Assembly (NCBI GenBank): GCA_016125555.1
Contig: WGLN01000014.1
Coordinates: 1-64,000, forward strand
Direction: 5' to 3'
Source of the DNA: Porphyrobacter sp.
GTDB lineage: Bacteria; Pseudomonadota; Alphaproteobacteria; Sphingomonadales; Sphingomonadaceae
DNA length: 64,000 bases
Shown: in pieces, positions 52,579 to 64,000 of the stretch
How positions within the stretch are numbered: the stretch's first letter is position 1
Layout of the letters: the number at the start of each line of letters is the position of its first letter
Notes under the pieces: generated by a model
Told to the model about the DNA's origin: nothing
What the model saw: only the letters and a program-made list of their open reading frames with translations
Databases searched by the model: none
Made by a program: the position numbers and the translations under genes

Positions 52579-53547
52579 TCAGAACTCGCCGCCGGTGAGG
52601 CGCTGGCACACCAGATCGAGCTGGTCGAGCGTGGTGTAGCGGATCGTGATCGTGCCCTTGCGCGGATCGGCCTCGGGCTTGATCTTGACGCCGAGGCCGA
52701 GGAACTCCTCGAGATGCTGCTGCACCGCGAGAATATCGGCGTTTTCCGCCGGGGCTTCGCCGCGGGGCGCATCGGGACGCGGCTTGTCGGCCTTGCCCAT
52801 CCGGCGGGTGAGCAGTTCCATCTCGCGCACCGACAGCCCCTCGGCCACCGCGATCTCGGCGAGGCGCTGGGCATCGGGCCGTCCGATCAGCGCGCGGACA
52901 TGGCCGGTGCTGAGCTGGCCCTGCTCGACCATGTCGAGCACCTTGTCGGGCAAGGTCATCAGCCGCATCATGTTGGCGACATGGCTGCGCGATTTCTCGA
53001 CCATCTTGGCGATGTCGACCTGGATCATCCCCTCCTCTTCCGAGAGGCGGTGATAGGCGCGCGCTTCCTCGACCGGGTTCAGGTCCTCGCGCTGGAGGTT
53101 CTCGATCAGCGCGAGCGCCATCACCTCGCGGTCGGACAGCTGGCGGACCAGCGCGGGGATCTCGTGGAGGCGCGCCCGCTGCGCCGCGCGCCAGCGCCGC
53201 TCGCCCGCGACCAGCTGATAGCCGCTGCCCTCGGGATGCGGGCGGACGATGATCGGCTGGATCACCCCGCGGCTGGCGATCGAGGCGGCGAGTTCGTCGA
53301 GCGCGGCATCGTCGAAATGCTTGCGCGGATTGCCGGGCAGCGGACGGATATTGGCGAGCGCCACCGACCGCAGCGACGGACCGCCCGCAGCAGGCGCTTC
53401 GACCGGCTCCTCGCGGCGCACCAGTGGCTCCTCGCGCCGGGTTTCGCCGAGCAGCGCGCCCAACCCCTTGCCGAGACGCCGCGGCTTGTCTCCCGATGCG
53501 CGGGAAACGGGCGAAATATCAGTTGTTTGGGTGGTCTCTTCGGTCAT
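52579..53547 (-). CDS. parB: Chromosome partitioning protein ParB
   Basis: 322 residues. Lysine/arginine-rich start (RRLGKGLGALLGE, ParA-contact region), CTP-binding N-domain with GVIQPIIVRP (94-103), GERRWRAAQRA (115-125) and ENLQREDLNPVEEA (149-162), helix-turn-helix QVDIAKMVEKSRSHVANMMR (~176-195) and a C-terminal dimer domain (~275-322). It loads at parS and slides as a CTP clamp. ATG 53547 overlaps the parA stop (ATGA). Six intact parS sites lie 0.9-5.6 kb upstream on the map. Confidence 0.98.
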   Translation of the reverse strand: MTEETTQTTDISPVSRASGDKPRRLGKGLGALLGETRREEPLVRREEPVEAPAAGGPSLRSVALANIRPLPGNPRKHFDDAALDELAASIASRGVIQPIIVRPHPEGSGYQLVAGERRWRAAQRARLHEIPALVRQLSDREVMALALIENLQREDLNPVEEARAYHRLSEEEGMIQVDIAKMVEKSRSHVANMMRLMTLPDKVLDMVEQGQLSTGHVRALIGRPDAQRLAEIAVAEGLSVREMELLTRRMGKADKPRPDAPRGEAPAENADILAVQQHLEEFLGLGVKIKPEADPRKGTITIRYTTLDQLDLVCQRLTGGEF

Positions 53548-54320
53548 GCCGCCTGCCTTTGTTCGGGAAAGCGCCCGATCAGCTCGCGCGCCAGCGACAT
53601 ATAGGCGCGGCTGCCGGTGCAATGCTGGTCATAGACCAGCGCGGGAAGCCCGTGGCTGGGCGCTTCGGAAAGCCGCACGTTGCGCGGGATCACGGTCTCG
53701 AACACCAGCTTGCCGAGGCAGTCGCGCACGTCGTCGGAGACCTGGTCGGTCAGGCGGTTGCGGCGGTCGAACATGGTCAGCGCGACGCCGATGATGCCGA
53801 GCCGCGGATTGAAGCGCTGCTGCACCTGGTCGACGGTCTGGAGCAGCTGCGAGAGCCCCTCGAGCGCGAAGAACTCGCATTGCAGCGGCACCAGCAGCGT
53901 GTCGGCGGCGCACAGTGCGTTCAACGTCAGCAGGCCGAGCGAGGGCGGGCAGTCGATGAAGGCGATGTCGTGCCCCTTGTGCTGCGCGAGGGCGTTGCGC
54001 AGCCGGGCGGTGCGCTCCTCGACCGAGACCAGCTCCACTTCCGCACCCGACAGGTCGACCGTCGCCGGCACAATGTCGAGCCGCGGAATACTGGTCGGGA
54101 CGATCGCATCCTCCAGCGCCACCTCGTCGACCAGCAGATCATAGCTCGATACCTCGCGCGCGGCCGAATGGACGCCGAGCCCGGTCGAGGCATTGCCCTG
54201 CGGATCGAGGTCGATCAGCAGCGTGCGCCACCCCGTCGCCGCCATCGCCGTGGCGATGTTGATCGCGGTGGTGGTCTTGCCCACTCCGCCCTTCTGGTTG
54301 GCAATCGCGATGGTCAGCAT
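53544..54320 (-). CDS. parA: Chromosome partitioning ATPase ParA
   Basis: 258 residues. Deviant Walker A KGGVGKTT (10-17), LLIDLDPQGNAS, IDCPPSLGLLTLNAL and VPLQCEFFALEGLSQLL are ParA/Soj hallmarks. The protein binds DNA without sequence preference when ATP-bound and drives origin segregation with ParB. It follows rsmG by 57 bases, the classical mnmE-mnmG-rsmG-parA-parB order, here complete. Confidence 0.98.
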   Translation of the reverse strand: MLTIAIANQKGGVGKTTTAINIATAMAATGWRTLLIDLDPQGNASTGLGVHSAAREVSSYDLLVDEVALEDAIVPTSIPRLDIVPATVDLSGAEVELVSVEERTARLRNALAQHKGHDIAFIDCPPSLGLLTLNALCAADTLLVPLQCEFFALEGLSQLLQTVDQVQQRFNPRLGIIGVALTMFDRRNRLTDQVSDDVRDCLGKLVFETVIPRNVRLSEAPSHGLPALVYDQHCTGSRAYMSLARELIGRFPEQRQAA

Positions 54321-54377
54321 GGGTGCTTTCGTCCTTCCGCAGCCGGATTCCGGCGGAATCCGCAAGCTTCTCGCGCA

Positions 54378-55004
54378 TCAGGCCTTCACAATGATTCCCG
54401 CGAGGGGATCGGTCAAGGAATGTTTCACGTGAAACATTGCCCGAATCGAAGGCTTCAAGTCCTGCAATTCCTGCGCCGCGGAGCGTCCCTTGGGCAACAC
54501 GTAGACGGTCTGCCTTGTGGAGAAGGGTGCGGACAAGGTGAGGAGTTTCGCCAGCGGGGCGAACGCCCGTGCCGAAATGGCGCGTGCCGGAAAGGGCGTG
54601 ACGCGCTCGAGCCGCTGGCCCTCGACCCGGCATTTGGGCAGACCAAGCTCGGCGATGCAGCGTTCTAGAAACCCGACCCGGCGCGCGCGGGATTCGACCA
54701 GCACCACCGGCATTTTCGGGCACAGCGCCGCGATCACCAGCCCCGGAAAGCCCGGTCCGCTGCCGAGATCGAGCCATGGCCCACCCGCATTCGGCCCCAA
54801 TGTTTCACGTGAAACATTTTCGAGGAGCTGCGCGGAATCGGCGATGTGGCGCTGCCAGATGTGCGGCTCGGTCGGTTTGGCGATGAGGTTCTGGTGCCGG
54901 TTCTCCTCGAGCACCAGCGCGGCGAAGGCTTCGAGCCGCGCCATGCCCTCGGCATCGGTCTGCCCGGCGACATAGGCGCGCGCCTCCTCTTCGGTGACGA
55001 TCAC
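54378..55004 (-). CDS. rsmG: 16S rRNA (guanine527-N7)-methyltransferase RsmG
   Basis: 208 residues. GTG start overlapping the mnmG stop (GTGA). SAM-binding motif [41 protein letters not shown] and YVLPKG match RsmG. It methylates G527 of 16S rRNA. Two parS sites lie inside the gene: one reads as NVSRET before the SAM motif, the other as MFHVKH near the C-terminus. Confidence 0.95.
54421..54436. promoter_or_regulatory. parS: parS site 1 (in rsmG)
   Basis: TGTTTCACGTGAAACA, perfect 16-bp palindrome equal to the bacterial parS consensus. Encodes MFHVKH in rsmG near its C-terminus. Confidence 0.95.
54801..54816. promoter_or_regulatory. parS: parS site 2 (in rsmG)
   Basis: TGTTTCACGTGAAACA, perfect. 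Read in another frame as NVSRET, just before the SAM-binding motif of rsmG. Confidence 0.95.
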
Positions 55005-56863
55005 GCCGCGCGCTGCCCGTCGGCGAGCCGCCGCGCATGGACGAGCAGCGCCGAGAGCGCCGCCGGAGTCACGCCCGGCACGCGCCCGGCCGCCGCCAGC
55101 GTGCCCGGCGCGGCGCTGGTGAGGCGTTCGACCATCTCGTTCGAGAGGCCCGGCACCTGGGCGTAGGGGAAGTCTGCGGGCAGCGGCAGCGCCTCGCTCG
55201 CGCGCAGATCGCGCAGCTCGGCGTCCTGTCGCGCCAGATAGGGCGCGTAAGCCGCGTCCTCGGCCATCTCCTCGGCGAGCCCCGGGTCGCACGCGGTCAG
55301 TTCGCCCAGCCAGGGCGCGAGCGCTTCGGGCGTGACCCCGTCGAAGCGCAGCCATTCGGCCAGCGGCTTCTCGCCATGATCGCGCCGTACCGGCAGGCCG
55401 AGATCGGCGAGGTCACGCGAATGGACGCGCTCGGAATGTTTCACGTGAAACATTGCGCGCAATTCCTCGCGCCGCTCCCACCATGCCCGGCGCTCCTCGC
55501 CGACGCACCCGGCTTCGATCCCGAGACCCGTCAGGCGCGTCGCGGCATTGTTGGCGCGCAAGCGCAGGCGGTATTCGGCGCGGGCGGTCAGCATCCGATA
55601 GGGCTCGGTCACGCCCTGCAAGGTCAGATCGTCGACCATCACCGCGATATAGGCATTGGCGCGGTCGAGCCGGGGCGCGGCCTTCCCGAGCGCGGCGGCG
55701 GCAGCCTCCAGCCCGGCGACGAGGCCCTGCGCAGCCGCCTCCTCGTAGCCGGTGGTGCCGTTGATCTGGCCAGCGCAATAGAGGCCGGGGATCGCCCTCA
55801 CCTGCAAATCGGGCGTCAGCGCGCGCGGATCGATATGGTCATATTCGACCGCATAGCCCGGCTGCACGATTTCCACCCGCGCGCAGCCCGGCATGGTGCG
55901 CACGACGGTCTCCTGCACATCCACCGGCAGCGAGGTGCTGATGCCGTTGGGATAGACCATGTGGGTGTCGAGCCCCTCCGGCTCGAGAAACACCTGATGC
56001 CCCTCGCGGTCGCCGAAGCGGTGGATCTTGTCCTCGATCGAGGGGCAATAGCGCGGCCCCGCCGCCGCAATCGCGCCCGAGAAGAGCGGCGAGCGGTCGA
56101 GGTTGGCGCGGATCACGTCGTGGCCCGCCTGCGTGGTGCGGGTGATCGCACAGAACACCTGCGGGTTCATGCGCGCCAGGGTGAGCGGCGACATGGTCCA
56201 ACCCTCCCCGTCCGAGGGCTGTTCCTCAAGCACGGCCCAGTCGATGGTCCGCCCGTCGAGGCGCGGCGGCGTGCCGGTCTTGAGGCGGGCCATGGGCAGG
56301 TCCGCGCCGCGCAATTGCTGGGCGAGCCGCTTGGCCGCATTCTCGCCGATGCGCCCGCCCTCGACGCGTTCCTCGCCGCGGAACAGCACCCCGCCAAGGA
56401 AGGTCCCGGTGCACAGGATCACGCGCCCGGCTTCGAGAATGGTGCCGTCGGCCAGTTCCAGCCCGGCGACCGCCCCGCCCTTCAGCACAAGCGCAGCCGC
56501 CTCGCCCTCGACAAGCGCGAGGTTCGGCTGCGCGCGCACCATCGCCTGCACCGCCGCCTTGAACCGCACCCGGTCGGCCTGGACGCGCGGGCCCCACACG
56601 GCGCTGCCCTTGGAGCGGTTGAGCATCCGGTAATGGATCGCCCCCGCATCCGCGGCGCGGCCGATCACTCCGTCGAGCGCATCGACCTCGCGCACGAGGT
56701 GGCCCTTGCCGAGCCCGCCGATCGCCGGATTGCAGCTCATCGCGCCGATCGCGGCGAGATCGAAACTCACCAGCCCGGTGCGCGCACCCATCCGCGCCGC
56801 CGCGCAGGCGGCTTCGACCCCGGCGTGACCGCCGCCGATGACGAGGACATCGAACTGGTGCAT
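55001..56863 (-). CDS. mnmG: tRNA uridine-5-carboxymethylaminomethyl modification enzyme MnmG (GidA)
   Basis: 620 residues. FAD-binding [19 protein letters not shown] (8-26), [22 protein letters not shown] (split) and [21 protein letters not shown] in the second half, and the C-terminal helical domain that contacts MnmE (~540-620). With MnmE it makes the cmnm5 group at U34. A parS site inside the gene reads [10 protein letters not shown] in a surface-type region (~485-495). ATG 56863 precedes the FAD motif by 7 residues. Confidence 0.97.
55437..55452. promoter_or_regulatory. parS: parS site 3 (in mnmG)
   Basis: TGTTTCACGTGAAACA, perfect, translated as MFHVKH within MnmG. Confidence 0.95.
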
Positions 56864-56935
56864 GGGCGCGCAGATAGGCCGCGCGCGGGGAATCGTCAAA
56901 GCGGATTTGCGCGACGGGGCTCCCGCTTCGTCAGC

Positions 56936-56979
56936 AATGTTTCACGTGGAAGCGAAGCTGTGGCGCAGCCACAAACATT
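56936..56979. promoter_or_regulatory. Split parS site with 24-bp insertion
   Basis: AATGTTTCACGTG (56936-56948) is followed by 24 foreign-looking bases (56949-56972) and then AAACATT (56973-56979). Removing the insertion restores a perfect parS with its usual AAT/ATT flanks. The insert itself forms part of a small TGTGGC/GCCACA hairpin. As it stands only one half-site arm with the central CACGTG is contiguous. Confidence 0.6.
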
Positions 56980-56988
56980 GGGAGCGAA

Positions 56989-57004
56989 TGTTTCACGTGA
57001 AACA
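56989..57004. promoter_or_regulatory. parS: parS site 4 (intergenic, inside a 34-base palindrome)
   Basis: TGTTTCACGTGAAACA, perfect, centred in a larger palindrome from GGGAGC (56980) to GCTCCC (57013) with a single mismatched pair. It lies 9 bases after the mnmE stop, so the RNA hairpin could also end mnmE transcription. Confidence 0.95.
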
Positions 57005-57021
57005 TTTGCTCCCGCGCAAGC

Positions 57022-58308
57022 TCACTTCCCGATGCAGAAGCGCCCGAACAGGGTGTCGAGCATGTCCTCGGTGGTGGCGCGTCCGATCAGACGATCGAAG
57101 GCGAGGCGGGCGCGGCGCAGTTCCTCGGCCACGAGCAGCGGGTCCGACAGCGCCTTCGCTCCCTCGAGCGCCTCGGTGGCTTCGGAAAGGCGCGCGTGCT
57201 GGCGAGCATTGAGCGCGGCTTCGCCCGGTCGGGGGAGCGCGTCGCGGGCCACATCGAGCAGCGCGGCCTTGAGCGCTCCCACTCCTTTGCCCGTCGCCGC
57301 CGAGAGGGTGAAGTGCGCCGTCGTCTTGGGCGCAAAGTCCGCACGGTCGGCCTGTGCGGCGATTTCCCACGCGTCCTGCGGCCCCGCACCTTCCGGTCCG
57401 AGCCACAGCACGAGGTCAGCGCGAGAAAGTTCTCCCTTCGCCCGGTCGATGCCGATCGCTTCGACCGCGTCGCCACTCTCGCCTTCGCGCAGCCCGGCGG
57501 TATCGACGAAGGTGAAGGGCACGCCGCCAATCGCCACCGCGCGTTCGATCACGTCGCGGGTGGTCCCGGCAATCGGCGAGGTGATCGCCGCCTCGCTTTC
57601 GACCAGCGCGTTGAAGAGCGTCGACTTGCCCGCATTGGGCGGTCCGGCGAGCACCACGCGGAAGCCCTCCCCCAGCCGCTCGGAGCGCGGGCGGGCGAGC
57701 CATTCGCGCAATTCTCCGGCCAGTGCGGCGATGTTCCACGTGAAACATTCGGGCAGATCGGCCGCGTCCTCCTCGTCGGAGAAGTCGAGCACGCCCTCGA
57801 CCTCGGCCGAGAGCGCCAGCACCTTCTCGCGCCAGGCCTCGACCTGCCGCGACAGCGCCCCGCCCGCATTGGCGAGCGCGGCGGCGCGTTGCAATTCGGT
57901 CTCGGCGGCGAGGAGATCGCCCAGCCCCTCGGCCTCGGCGAGGTCGATCCGGCCATTGGCGAAGGCGCGGCGGGTGAACTCCCCCGGCTCGGCGCGGCGC
58001 AAGCCCGGCAGCGCGGCCAGCGCCCGCTCCACCGCCGCGATCACCGCGCGGCCGCCGTGGCAGTGGAACTCGGCGAGGTCCTCGCCCGTCGCGCTGTTCG
58101 GCCCGGGAAACCACAGCACCAGCGCCGCGTCGAGCAATGCCCCTTGCGCATCGCGCAGCTTCGCGAGCGAGGCGCGGCGCGGTTCCGGCATGCGTCCGGC
58201 GAGCGCCTGCAAGGCTGCCCCCGCCCCCGGGCCGGACACGCGGATCAGCCCGACGCCCGCCGGCGGCGCGCCGCTCGAGAGCGCGAAGATGGTCGGCAGC
58301 GCGCTCAC
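57022..58308 (-). CDS. mnmE: tRNA modification GTPase MnmE (TrmE)
   Basis: 428 residues. The N-terminal folate-binding domain begins TIFALSSGAPPAGVGLIRVS; G1 motif GPPNAGKST (222-230), G2 GTTRDVIE, G3 DTAGLRE, and the catalytic C-terminus FCIGK (424-428). It is a GTPase partner of MnmG in U34 tRNA modification. GTG start at 58308, 4 bases after the small protein gene. A parS variant within the gene reads CFTWN at 189-192. At 428 residues it is slightly shorter than E. coli MnmE. Confidence 0.97.
   Translation of the reverse strand: MSALPTIFALSSGAPPAGVGLIRVSGPGAGAALQALAGRMPEPRRASLAKLRDAQGALLDAALVLWFPGPNSATGEDLAEFHCHGGRAVIAAVERALAALPGLRRAEPGEFTRRAFANGRIDLAEAEGLGDLLAAETELQRAAALANAGGALSRQVEAWREKVLALSAEVEGVLDFSDEEDAADLPECFTWNIAALAGELREWLARPRSERLGEGFRVVLAGPPNAGKSTLFNALVESEAAITSPIAGTTRDVIERAVAIGGVPFTFVDTAGLREGESGDAVEAIGIDRAKGELSRADLVLWLGPEGAGPQDAWEIAAQADRADFAPKTTAHFTLSAATGKGVGALKAALLDVARDALPRPGEAALNARQHARLSEATEALEGAKALSDPLLVAEELRRARLAFDRLIGRATTEDMLDTLFGRFCIGK
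57732..57747. promoter_or_regulatory. parS: parS site 5 (in mnmE)
   Basis: TGTTCCACGTGAAACA, one base off the perfect palindrome (C at position 5), still within the degenerate consensus TGTTNCACGTGAAACA. Read as CFTWN in MnmE. Confidence 0.88.
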
Positions 58309-58312
58309 GAGG

Positions 58313-58573
58313 TCAGTCGGAGGACTTCGGCCCCTCGCCGCGCGACGCCGCCTTCATCCCGCCTTCGACGAAGCTCTGGAACAGCTTCAGGCCCACCTGC
58401 CCCATCGGCGCGAGGGCCGCGGCATATTCCTGAAGCTGGTCGGGGCTGGAGACGCCCTTCATCGCCTTGGCGATGTTGTCGACATAGACGCTGTTGGCCG
58501 CGCTCACATCGGGCAGGCCGAGGAAGCTGCGTGCCTCTTCGGGGGTGCAATCGACTTCGATGGTGATCTTCAT
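58313..58573 (-). CDS. Small conserved protein (DUF6489-like)
   Basis: 86 residues. GGAGGAG ribosome-binding site before the ATG. Sequence KITIEVDCTPEEARSFLGLP, then VSAANSVYVDNIAKAM and an amphipathic helix with GQVGLKLFQSFVEGGMK. Resembles small alphaproteobacterial proteins found next to mnmE; I believe the DUF6489 family but could not check. Function unknown. It is the first gene of the run to parB and divergent from the dienelactone hydrolase gene. Confidence 0.8.
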   Translation of the reverse strand: MKITIEVDCTPEEARSFLGLPDVSAANSVYVDNIAKAMKGVSSPDQLQEYAAALAPMGQVGLKLFQSFVEGGMKAASRGEGPKSSD

Positions 58574-58666
58574 TTGCGGCTCCTCCTGCCTCACCCCATT
58601 TGCGCTTGGCAGGGGGACAAGGCAAGAGATAGGACCGCCAGACACCCCGCAGCCAGGAGAGATGCC

Positions 58667-59365
58667 ATGAGCCTCAACGAAACCATCCCCACCCTTGAAG
58701 GCGATTCCCACTTCGGCGCCTATGTCGCCAAGCCGGAAGGCACCCCGCGCGGCGCAATCATCGTCATCCAGGAGATCTTCGGGGTGAATCCCGGCATCCG
58801 CCGCAAGTGCGACAAGCTCGCCGCCGAGGGCTACCTCGCGGTGGCGCCCGACCTGTTCTGGCGGCTGAAGCCCGGCGTCGAACTCGACCCCGACGTGGAG
58901 AGCGAGTTCAACACCGCGCTCGACCTGATGGGCAAGTTCGATCAGGACGCGGGCATCCGCGACATCGAGGCGACCATTCACCACATCCGGCGCACCTTGG
59001 GCGTCGCCAAGGTCGGCTGCGTCGGTTACTGCCTCGGCGGGCGGCTCGCTTACATGACCGCGGCGCGCACCGATATCGACGCGAGCGTGGGCTATTACGG
59101 GGTCGGCATCGACGGGTTGCTGGCTGAGAAGCACGCGATCTCGAAGCCCCTGATGCTCCACATCCCCACCGCCGATCATTTTGTTTCACGTGAAACACAG
59201 GCCGCGATGCATGAGGGGCTCGACGATCACCCGCGGGTGACGCTGCACGATTACGAGGGGCTCGACCACGGCTTCGCCACTGAGATGGGCGAGCGCCGCA
59301 AGGAGGAGGCCGCCAACCTCGCCGACAGCCGCACCATGGCTTTCTTCGCGGAAGCCTTCGGATGA
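58667..59365 (+). CDS. Dienelactone hydrolase family protein
   Basis: 232 residues, alpha/beta hydrolase. The nucleophile elbow GYCLGG carries the DLH cysteine; GLDHGFA holds the catalytic histidine; QEIFGVNPGIRRKCDKLA (start) matches the family's glutamate region. AGGAGAG ribosome-binding site. A parS site inside the gene reads FVSRETQAA, just after the HIPTADH segment where the acid residue is expected. Physiological substrate unknown. Overlaps the NTF2-like gene by four bases. Confidence 0.92.
   Translation: MSLNETIPTLEGDSHFGAYVAKPEGTPRGAIIVIQEIFGVNPGIRRKCDKLAAEGYLAVAPDLFWRLKPGVELDPDVESEFNTALDLMGKFDQDAGIRDIEATIHHIRRTLGVAKVGCVGYCLGGRLAYMTAARTDIDASVGYYGVGIDGLLAEKHAISKPLMLHIPTADHFVSRETQAAMHEGLDDHPRVTLHDYEGLDHGFATEMGERRKEEAANLADSRTMAFFAEAFG
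59182..59197. promoter_or_regulatory. parS: parS site 6 (in the dienelactone hydrolase gene)
   Basis: TGTTTCACGTGAAACA, perfect, read as VSRET. The most origin-proximal site seen, about 4 kb from the candidate oriC. Confidence 0.95.
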
Positions 59366-62144: not shown

Positions 62145-63161
62145 TTACCCTCTGAGCGCGGCGAGCAGTTCCTCGACATGGGAAATCGGCGTGTGCTGTC
62201 CGATTCCGTGGCCGAGATTGAAAACATGGGGACGGTCCGCGAAAGCCGCAAGGATCGTGCGCACCCTTTCGGGAAGCGCCGGCCCCCCCGCCTCGACCAG
62301 CAGCGGATCGAGATTGCCCTGCACCGGCATGCCTTCCGGCAGGCTCCGGTGCGCCCAGGCGGGATCGAGCGTCTCGTCGAGCCCGACCGCATCGACCCCG
62401 GTTTCGCGCGCATAGGCGGGCAGCTTCGCGCCCGCGCCCTTGGGAAAGCCGATCACCGGCACATCCGGGTGCGACTGCTTGAGCTCAGCGGTGATCGCCG
62501 CATTGGGGGCGATGACCCACCTCTCGAACTGATCGGGCGCAAGGCTCCCCGCCCAGCTGTCGAACAGCTGCACGGCTTCCGCGCCCGCGTCGATCTGGCC
62601 GCGAAGGTAGGTCACCGAAACCTCCACGATGCGGTCGATGATCGCCTGCATCCGGCCTGCATCGCGATAGGCGAGCAGCCGCGCCGGGCCCTGATCCTTC
62701 GACCCTTCCCCCGCGATCATGTAGGTCGCGACCGTCCAGGGGCTCCCCGCAAAGCCGAGCATGGTCACCTCGGGGCCGATCTGCTGGCGGGTGAGGCGCA
62801 CGGTCTCGTAGACCGGCTCGAACCGCTCGAAGGCCGGGGTGAAGCTGTCGAGTTCCACCTCGAGCAACGTCGGCGAGAGGTGCGGGCCCTCGCCCGCCTG
62901 GAAGGTCAGCCCCTGCCCCATCGCGTGCGGCACGATCAGGATGTCGGAGAACAGGATCGCCCCGTCGAAGCCGAAGCGCCGGATCGGCTGCACGGTGATC
63001 TCGGCCGCGGCCTCGCTGTCGTAGACGAGTTCGAGGAACCCGCCCTTTTCCGCACGAAGTTCCCGATATTCAGGAAGATAGCGACCCGCCTGACGCATCA
63101 GCCAGACAGGCGCGACGGGTTGGCGGACACCTTTGAGCGTATCGAGAAGCGGACCGGGCAT
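62145..63161 (-). CDS. hemE: Uroporphyrinogen decarboxylase HemE
   Basis: 338 residues. Signature PVWLMRQAGRYLPEYRELR at the N-terminus with the active-site arginine pair, FSDILIVPHAMG with the catalytic aspartate, GFAGSPWTVATYMI and FNLGHGI near the end. It decarboxylates uroporphyrinogen III to coproporphyrinogen III. ATG 63161 has AAGGA six bases upstream; the upstream open frame runs into the non-coding origin gap. hemE next to the chromosome origin is typical of Caulobacter-type genomes. Confidence 0.97.
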   Translation of the reverse strand: MPGPLLDTLKGVRQPVAPVWLMRQAGRYLPEYRELRAEKGGFLELVYDSEAAAEITVQPIRRFGFDGAILFSDILIVPHAMGQGLTFQAGEGPHLSPTLLEVELDSFTPAFERFEPVYETVRLTRQQIGPEVTMLGFAGSPWTVATYMIAGEGSKDQGPARLLAYRDAGRMQAIIDRIVEVSVTYLRGQIDAGAEAVQLFDSWAGSLAPDQFERWVIAPNAAITAELKQSHPDVPVIGFPKGAGAKLPAYARETGVDAVGLDETLDPAWAHRSLPEGMPVQGNLDPLLVEAGGPALPERVRTILAAFADRPHVFNLGHGIGQHTPISHVEELLAALRG

Positions 63162-63486
63162 GGCGTTCCTTAAACAAATCAATTCAAATTTTAAAAGGAT
63201 TGATGGAGTCTGTTGGCCCTGTGGAAAGCGGGAATTACCGGTTCCTGCCCGATTACCCCCAGCCCTGCCAGTCCCAAACACCCCCCGCCGAATCCGCATG
63301 GCTTGGACGTCAAGCGGGGTTTATCCCCACTCTTCCCAGCCTGTCGACAAAACCTCTCCCGTGTCGACAAATACCCCGGTGAAAAGCCGGACAGCGGGCA
63401 GGAAAATCGCTCCGCAGCTTGTCCGGCAATTGCTCCCGTGGTTTATGCGCCCTTCTGTCCACAGCCCCGGCGGATCCGCGCGAGCC
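63162..63486. other. oriC: Candidate chromosomal replication origin (oriC), hemE-ppsR gap
   Basis: The only gap above 300 bases in the window. At the hemE end is an AT-rich stretch (63168-63202, including CAATTCAAATTTTAAAAGG) suitable for unwinding. DnaA-box-like sites: TTATCCCCA (63321-63329, one mismatch), CTGTCCACA (63455-63463, two mismatches), and CTTTCCACA on the minus strand (63220-63228, two mismatches). TGTCGACAAA occurs twice exactly 20 bp apart (63342 and 63362). The locus matches the origin position between hemE and the ppsR homologue in Caulobacter. No gene is seen. Confidence 0.6.
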
Positions 63487-64000
63487 ATGAACCGACTCAA
63501 CCTCCACCTCGTATCGGATTCGACCGGCGAGACGCTGGAGATGATCGCCAAGGCGGCGCTGGCGCAGTTCGACGATCCCGATGTCAGCCGCCATTTCTGG
63601 CCGATGGTGCGCTCGCTGCAGCACCTCGACCGGATCGTCCCCGATCTCGCCGCGCATCCGGGCCTCGTGCTCTACACGCTGGTGAACCCGGAAACCCGCA
63701 AGCGGCTGGAGGAGCATTGCCGTCATCTCGGCCTCCCCGCGGTGCCGGTGCTCGACCAGGTGACCGCCGCACTGGAGGCGCAGCTCGGCCAGGAGGCGCA
63801 TGGCCGCCCGGGCCGGCAGCACATGATGGACGAGGATTACTTCAAGCGCGTCGACGCGATCCAGTACACCATCGCCCATGACGACGGGATCGGCTGGGAG
63901 GAATGGGAGGAAGCCGACATCGTGCTGGTCGGCGTGTCGCGCTCGTCCAAGACGCCGACGAGCATCTATCTCGCCAATCGCGGCTACAAGGTCGCGAACA
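63487..64000 (+). CDS. ppsR: PpsR-type pyruvate, phosphate dikinase regulatory protein (DUF299), 3' end beyond window
   Basis: First 171 residues. LNLHLVSDSTGETLEMIAKA (2-21) and ADIVLVGVSRSSKTPTSIYL (~145-164, with the P-loop-like GVSRSSKT) are signatures of the bifunctional serine/threonine kinase and phosphorylase of PEP synthase or PPDK. Begins directly after the candidate oriC and reads away from it. The homologue flanks the origin in Caulobacter and Rickettsia. Confidence 0.95.
   Translation, partial: MNRLNLHLVSDSTGETLEMIAKAALAQFDDPDVSRHFWPMVRSLQHLDRIVPDLAAHPGLVLYTLVNPETRKRLEEHCRHLGLPAVPVLDQVTAALEAQLGQEAHGRPGRQHMMDEDYFKRVDAIQYTIAHDDGIGWEEWEEADIVLVGVSRSSKTPTSIYLANRGYKVAN

Follow-up and report, generated by a model that had tools for sequence, protein, structure and literature searches.

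Gene Content of the hemE–ppsR Locus

The window, i.e. the whole 64,000-nucleotide stretch analysed here, corresponds to bases 1-64000 of C6, a contig of 171,888 bp in a 20-contig assembly of 3.07 Mb. Near its right end, the divergent genes hemE and ppsR are separated by an intergenic gap of 325 bp, and a parABS-type segregation locus lies to the left:

52579..53622, minus strand: parB (TIGR00180, 188 bits, over the cut-off)
53544..54365, minus strand: parA-like ORF (the best 25 of 27 model matches, ParA- and MinD-type included, are all below the cut-off)
54421, 54801, 55437, 56989, 57732 (1 mismatch) and 59182 (span 54421..59197), no strand assigned: parS cluster, found by a motif scan
62145..63161, minus strand: hemE, left boundary gene (TIGR01464, 374 bits, over the cut-off)
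63162..63486, no strand assigned: hemE–ppsR intergenic region, predicted oriC (position, box cluster, AT-rich 35-mer)
63487..64000, plus strand: ppsR (COG1806/DUF299), right boundary gene (NF003742, 334 bits, over the cut-off)

The gene order rho-hemJ-hemE-gap-ppsR, proposed by the first-pass annotation, was checked with NCBIfam models and agrees with them, with a HemJ model score (94 bits) below the curated cut-off of 138 bits. ppsR extends past the window end (281 aa within the contig); its score against the narrower model NF049928 is below the cut-off of that model. The boundaries given earlier for the gap are exact. Among the records compared, which may leave out very near ones, Erythrobacter donghaensis has the closest named hemE (94% identity), which identifies the bacterium as an Erythrobacter or Porphyrobacter.

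parABS had been placed about 4-10 kb from the gap, and this position was borne out: parAB and the six parS sites occupy 52579-59197, 4-11 kb away, the parS cluster itself being 4-9 kb away. According to PMC8116508, parAB is a good anchor for the origin in Sphingomonadales. Five of the six sites are perfect and one has a single mismatch; none of 100 shuffles contained a parS site. All six fall within or next to coding frames, and some are translated as MFHVKH or NVSRET peptides. The frames around the cluster are presumably gidB, gidA and trmE, which they resemble. Other contigs of the genome carry five more perfect parS sites (C3:247621, C4:97116, C16:105053, C17:356513, C19:4101) and twelve with 1-2 mismatches, giving a genome total of 23 with the six described above.

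Comparison of the Gap among Relatives

hemE with up to 10 kb of flanking sequence was taken from 80 named records and the present locus was added, giving 81 loci. In 74 of these, hemE and ppsR are divergent around a gap shorter than 500 bp. The seven loci without a ppsR match (L077, L080, L082, L083, L084, L086 and L088) were dropped and four distant loci (L079, L081, L085 and L087) were omitted from the counts, so that 69 gaps and the present one, 70 in total, were compared. They were divided by hemE identity into 16 near gaps (≥81%, the present one included) and 54 distant gaps (≤73%). Record titles were not used for this division; some of the 54 are titled Erythrobacter, Proteobacteria or Bacillus. 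One of them (L073), titled Bacillus sp. 2B10, has a sphingomonad-like hemE–ppsR gap and 65% hemE identity, and the assembly looks mislabelled or contaminated.

The length of the gap is 291-436 bp across the 70 (median 326), with some start codons extrapolated from alignments. Overall conservation of the gap in 12 relatives (0.70) equals the median (0.70) of 325-bp segments in the surrounding 20 kb (rank 149 of 304). Enrichment of DnaA-type boxes was evaluated against dinucleotide shuffles. Boxes with ≤1 mismatch from TTATCCACA number 20 vs 0.8 expected in the near gaps and 107 vs 2.5 in the distant ones; for ≤2 mismatches the numbers are 77 vs 11.9 and 263 vs 38, all four comparisons overstating significance, since related sequences are not independent samples. 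The core TCCACA is present in all 16 near and all 54 distant gaps.

DnaA Boxes and Other Elements of the Gap

The following elements were recognised within the gap; the DnaA boxes are candidates identified by similarity to TTATCCACA:

63170..63204, no strand assigned: AT-rich stretch (83% A+T), putative duplex-unwinding element
63206..63210, no strand assigned: GANTC (CcrM) site, GAGTC
63220..63228, minus strand: DnaA box CTTTCCACA adjoining the AT-rich stretch, within the block TTGGCCCTGTGGA (column comparison)
63253..63261, plus strand: weakest candidate box, TTACCCCCA (2 mismatches)
63290..63294, no strand assigned: GANTC (CcrM) site, GAATC
63321..63329, plus strand: DnaA box TTATCCCCA, including the Caulobacter W-box TCCCCA (63324-63329)
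63342..63350, minus strand: degenerate DnaA box TTGTCGACA, first repeat copy (column comparison)
63362..63370, minus strand: degenerate DnaA box TTGTCGACA, second repeat copy (column comparison)
63455..63463, plus strand: DnaA box CTGTCCACA at the ppsR end, fitting the Caulobacter consensus [TC][TCG][AG]TCCACA

The first-pass annotation had described imperfect DnaA boxes in both orientations. Both strands indeed carry such boxes, six 9-mers in total that differ from TTATCCACA at no more than two positions; TTATCCCCA is the sole one with a single mismatch, and a perfect TTATCCACA is absent from the gap. Across 140 kb of the contig such boxes average 0.25 per 325 bp, and six are reached nowhere but in the gap. 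The mismatch thresholds were picked after the sequence had been seen, so the comparative evidence is the stronger.

The box at 63220 is within two mismatches of TTATCCACA in 16/16 near and 35/53 distant gaps, with one further distant gap containing an indel. The box at the ppsR end is kept at the same threshold in 14/16 near and 52/54 distant gaps and reads exactly TTATCCACA in 11 of the 54; the consensus that it fits is taken from PMC2877005. The box at 63321, whose W-box (TCCCCA core) is defined in PMC4285127, is kept in 14/16 near but only 18/54 distant gaps, and the weakest candidate is identical in 6/16 near gaps. The distant sphingomonad gaps differ from the near ones in that 17 of 54 hold a perfect TTATCCACA, compared with 1 of 16. 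It had been left open earlier whether the boxes are of the weak type or the real core differs. The boxes are weak and most of them are kept among near relatives, which lends no support to the second option; the predicted origin is thus built from weak DnaA boxes, most of them retained in place in this part of the family.

A pair of repeats in the gap had been called unusual. The pair meant was taken to be TGTCGACAAA, which occurs twice, at 63342-63351 and 63362-63371. The pair itself is confirmed, and its unusual appearance is best read as that of degenerate DnaA boxes. In the column of the first copy, 10/16 near gaps are within two mismatches of TTATCCACA and seven have TTGTCGACA itself, while in distant gaps the same column carries TTATCCACA in 5/54 and a box with ≤1 mismatch in 12/54; the repeats are read as weakened boxes on account of these perfect and near-perfect forms. 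The column of the second copy is within two mismatches in 13/16 near gaps, though it has TTGTCGACA in just 4/16, and in 6/40 distant gaps (14 more have an indel). The alternative that some other, palindrome-reading regulator acts at the origin through the TGTCGACAAA pair would account for TGTCGACA being a perfect palindrome, for the genome count of TTGTCGACA (33 vs 6 for the reversed control) and for its abundance at ≤1 mismatch (37 vs 0.9 expected in the near gaps, 49 vs 3.0 in the distant ones). The column contents just given for both copies speak against this alternative, which is considered unlikely. Two weakened DnaA boxes appear to be the simplest description of the pair. At two of its genomic positions, TTGTCGACA occurs on both strands with the copies overlapping.

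The AT-rich stretch reported at one end of the gap was recovered as well. The 35-mer starting at 63170 is the most A+T-rich of 140 kb of the contig; A+T content is 31% over these 140 kb, compared with 42% for the gap. The most AT-rich 35-mer starts ≤60 bp from hemE in 16/16 near and 48/54 distant gaps.

The GANTC site at 63206 has a GANTC counterpart in 14/16 near and 16/54 distant gaps, and that at 63290 in 16/16 and 33/54. Among the near gaps, the latter is GAATC in 13 and GACTC in three; a constant site with a varying free base is the pattern expected if selection acts on the methylation site. GANTC totals exceed those of shuffles (39 vs 19.5 in the near gaps, 261 vs 72 in the distant ones). 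The genome contains dnaA, gcrA and ccrM genes; the RAMA domain of the ccrM product is over its cut-off, and the CcrM model scores 602 bits, below the strict cut-off of 830.

Several motifs gave null results. CtrA sites do not exceed chance in either set of gaps (near: 4 found, 1.4 expected; distant: 5 found, 2.8 expected). None of the 70 gaps matches the IHF consensus used, from which the Caulobacter IHF site differs in sequence. The longest run of DnaA-trios ([A/T]A[A/G] triplets next to a DnaA box) is 2 in the gap vs a shuffled mean of 1.7. Two secondary DNA matches of 28-33 bp map to the portion of the query that encodes ppsR, outside the gap, and were set aside.

GC Skew and the Distance to dnaA

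A GC-skew minimum at the gap had been named beforehand as a test of the origin, and its outcome favours the gap in two relatives without amounting to proof. For the contig itself, 140 of its 172 kb give a cumulative skew too noisy to favour any position: it reaches -219 at +8 kb and -231 at +64 kb. A relative of the same genus (G165; ppsR 89% identical) has a two-contig assembly whose first contig is 3.13-Mb. A contiguous 400-kb stretch of G165 shows a V-shaped cumulative GC skew with the minimum 15 kb from ppsR (+15 kb, in 5-kb steps), in agreement with the prediction.

The chromosomes of G165 and of two single-contig relatives (G117 and G012) were also sampled sparsely, as twenty 20-kb pieces around each. 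G117 agrees with the prediction: left/right GC skew is -0.011/+0.010 (t 3.8) and the best bisector lies -29 to +36 kb from ppsR. G012 has a comparable left/right skew (-0.009/+0.011, t 3.6), with the best GC bisector at +71 to +140 kb. In the sparse samples of G165, splitting at the gap gives t 2.1, and the sign changes between the -62 and +83 kb samples; the best GC bisector is at -767 to -782 kb, followed by -250 to -297 kb. It lies so far off because the right arm is negative again beyond about +0.6 Mb. This reversal, on contig C1, comes long before the opposite point of the chromosome, a pattern that a large inversion or a terminus away from the centre would produce. Sparse sampling of G165 and G012 puts the best GC bisectors 71-782 kb off the gap. 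Bisectors of fourfold-site skew are 0.1-1.1 Mb off and those of TA skew 0.66-1.08 Mb off in the sparse samples. Gene strand bias shows no clear difference at the gap in the three relatives (t 0.5, 1.7 and -0.4). Overall, skew in two relatives points to a position tens of kb or less from the gap, and that of the third is consistent with it, which supports the assignment.

An origin adjacent to dnaA is a common arrangement in bacteria. In its favour, the contig that carries dnaA also has a parS site, about 32 kb from that gene, and the dnaA locus of G165 has two boxes with one mismatch. However, dnaA and ppsR are 361-481 kb apart in G165, G117 and G012, which puts dnaA away from the skew minimum in the 400-kb stretch of G165; in the genome studied, G117 and G012, the 3.5 kb around dnaA contain no box with ≤1 mismatch. 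PMC8116508 likewise describes dnaA as not conserved near the origin in Sphingomonadales. A dnaA-linked origin was judged unlikely on distance and skew, and its probability is practically negligible.

Comparison with Known Origins

The experimentally identified origin of Caulobacter lies between hemE and a COG1806 gene (PMC1914354), so the earlier statement that the gap is where Caulobacter-type origins lie holds for both flanking genes. PMC4741004 reports, for Sphingopyxis and for most Sphingomonadaceae listed in DoriC, a predicted origin beside hemE whose region contains DnaA boxes and a putative unwinding element; all three features of Sphingopyxis granuli TFA and the further family members described there are shared by the present gap. 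Since a hemE-side origin has already been published for Sphingomonadaceae, an element of this known kind is an expected find. No study titled as dealing with an Erythrobacter origin was found among the best-ranked open-access literature matches.

These precedents bear on the possibility that the gap is a mere divergent promoter region of hemE and ppsR, its conserved blocks being promoter or operator elements, with the origin elsewhere near parABS. The two genes do start outward from the gap, conservation may be found in divergent regulatory regions too, certain conserved blocks (e.g. TCCCGTGGTTTATGC) fit no DnaA box, and skew resolves an origin to tens of kb at best. However, neither the presence of several DnaA-type boxes on both strands, here enriched across 70 gaps, nor that of the regional A+T maximum is required of a promoter region, and the origin identified experimentally in Caulobacter is the same gap. 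The promoter-only explanation is regarded as highly improbable compared with an origin at the gap.

Caulobacter crescentus Cori shares with the gap the hemE/COG1806 boundaries (length 404 bp in Cori vs 325 bp here), an AT-rich region and weak DnaA boxes including the W-box core TCCCCA (PMC4285127), as well as GANTC sites within the origin (PMC3973325). One box of the gap fits the Caulobacter consensus, and parABS is nearby in both. Unlike Cori, which has five CtrA sites, the gap has none (TTAA-N7-TTAA, one mismatch allowed), and neither the G-box TGATCCACA nor an IHF consensus was found in it; dnaA is far away in the three relatives mapped, another difference from Cori. The gap may be expected to work like Cori; with no CtrA site found in it, the likeness does not identify it as a CtrA-type Cori.

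The origin of Rickettsia prowazekii has the same hemE-COG1806 boundary genes (PMC1914354), with 83% A+T vs 42% here; the likeness is one of boundary genes. E. coli oriC is alike in outline, having DnaA boxes beside an AT-rich unwinding element (partly after PMC4285127), but the gap differs from it in having no consensus boxes and other neighbours, and membership of that type is not claimed.

Predicted Origin and Its Possible Mode of Action

Synteny, parABS, the box cluster, the AT-rich end and conservation across species all support the prediction of oriC at this locus, and the candidate origin put forward by the first-pass annotation agrees with the skew of the relatives G165 and G117 as well. 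The gap at 63162-63486 is very probably the chromosomal origin, of the Caulobacter kind.

In the mode of action suggested by this arrangement, DnaA would bind a TCCACA-type box at each end of the gap (63220-63228, 63455-63463) as well as the weaker boxes between them, i.e. TTATCCCCA and the two copies of TTGTCGACA. The resulting DnaA oligomer would open the AT-rich stretch at 63170-63204 beside hemE, both the opening and the direction of assembly being putative. Helicase would be loaded onto the opened stretch and two forks would depart. Fork passage would leave the two GANTC sites hemimethylated, which may mark a used origin until CcrM remethylates them and ends the mark. The parS cluster 4-9 kb off would let ParAB pull the new origin away.

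Consensus DnaA Boxes at ccrM and ftsZ

The perfect box TTATCCACA occurs just twice in the genome, compared with 15 occurrences of the reversed control. One copy (C17:352726-352734; L206:6726-6734) is directly upstream of ccrM, a 387-aa frame starting at C17:352744 (L206:6744-7904), and the other (C17:253270-253278; L205:7270-7278) is 102 bp upstream of ftsZ. DnaA control of ftsZ in Caulobacter is described in PMC3708114, and PMC2877005 reports DnaA sites predicted at ccrM mainly in those alphaproteobacteria whose ccrM lacks CtrA sites.

Family loci were the best 30 of 190 (ppsR), 119 (ccrM) and 118 (ftsZ) matching genomes, the present one included, from draws of 199 genomes for ppsR and 119 each for ccrM and ftsZ. 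Within 380 bp around the aligned start, a perfect box is present in 27/30 ccrM and 21/30 ftsZ loci, and a box with ≤1 mismatch in 29/30 and 28/30, respectively, those of ftsZ all having one orientation; shuffles, which keep base composition only, gave 0 of 600 for each gene. The best 30 oriC gaps of the larger ppsR draw contain no perfect box. Given the perfect boxes in 1/16 near and 17/54 distant gaps, this contrast is limited to this part of the family and does not apply to all sphingomonads. Perfect boxes number 2 to 12 per genome among the matches listed for a 41-genome draw of the genus; of the first-listed boxes that yielded loci, 30 in number, 10 have ccrM or ftsZ in their locus, which shows that perfect boxes also occur away from these genes.

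In the 29 ccrM loci with a box, the upstream region follows the frame TTGAC...GANTC...GANTC-ACCC-TGTGGATAA. A GANTC site starts 9-10 bases before the box in 27/29 and another 18-21 bases before it in 27/29. The ccrM promoter region (L207-L236) appears as a near-invariant composite with two GANTC sites about 11 bp apart; no report of a composite ccrM promoter in sphingomonads was found among the literature matches listed.

A tentative but quite possible reading is that Erythrobacter and near relatives divide the jobs of DnaA between weak boxes at the origin and consensus boxes at the ccrM and ftsZ promoters. With the box and both GANTC sites in one ccrM promoter, DnaA and methylation would act on a single switch. 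The level of DnaA would set that of CcrM, and CcrM would reset the GANTC sites both at oriC and in the ccrM promoter; a DnaA–CcrM loop of this kind may gate replication and division where the origin lacks CtrA sites.

An origin confined to a gap of 325 bp in this Erythrobacter lineage would provide a compact target for DnaA binding, within which the odd repeats can be explained as weakened DnaA boxes. The consensus boxes at ccrM and ftsZ, as opposed to the weak ones at oriC, suggest a testable coupling of initiation, methylation and division that may operate without CtrA sites at the origin.
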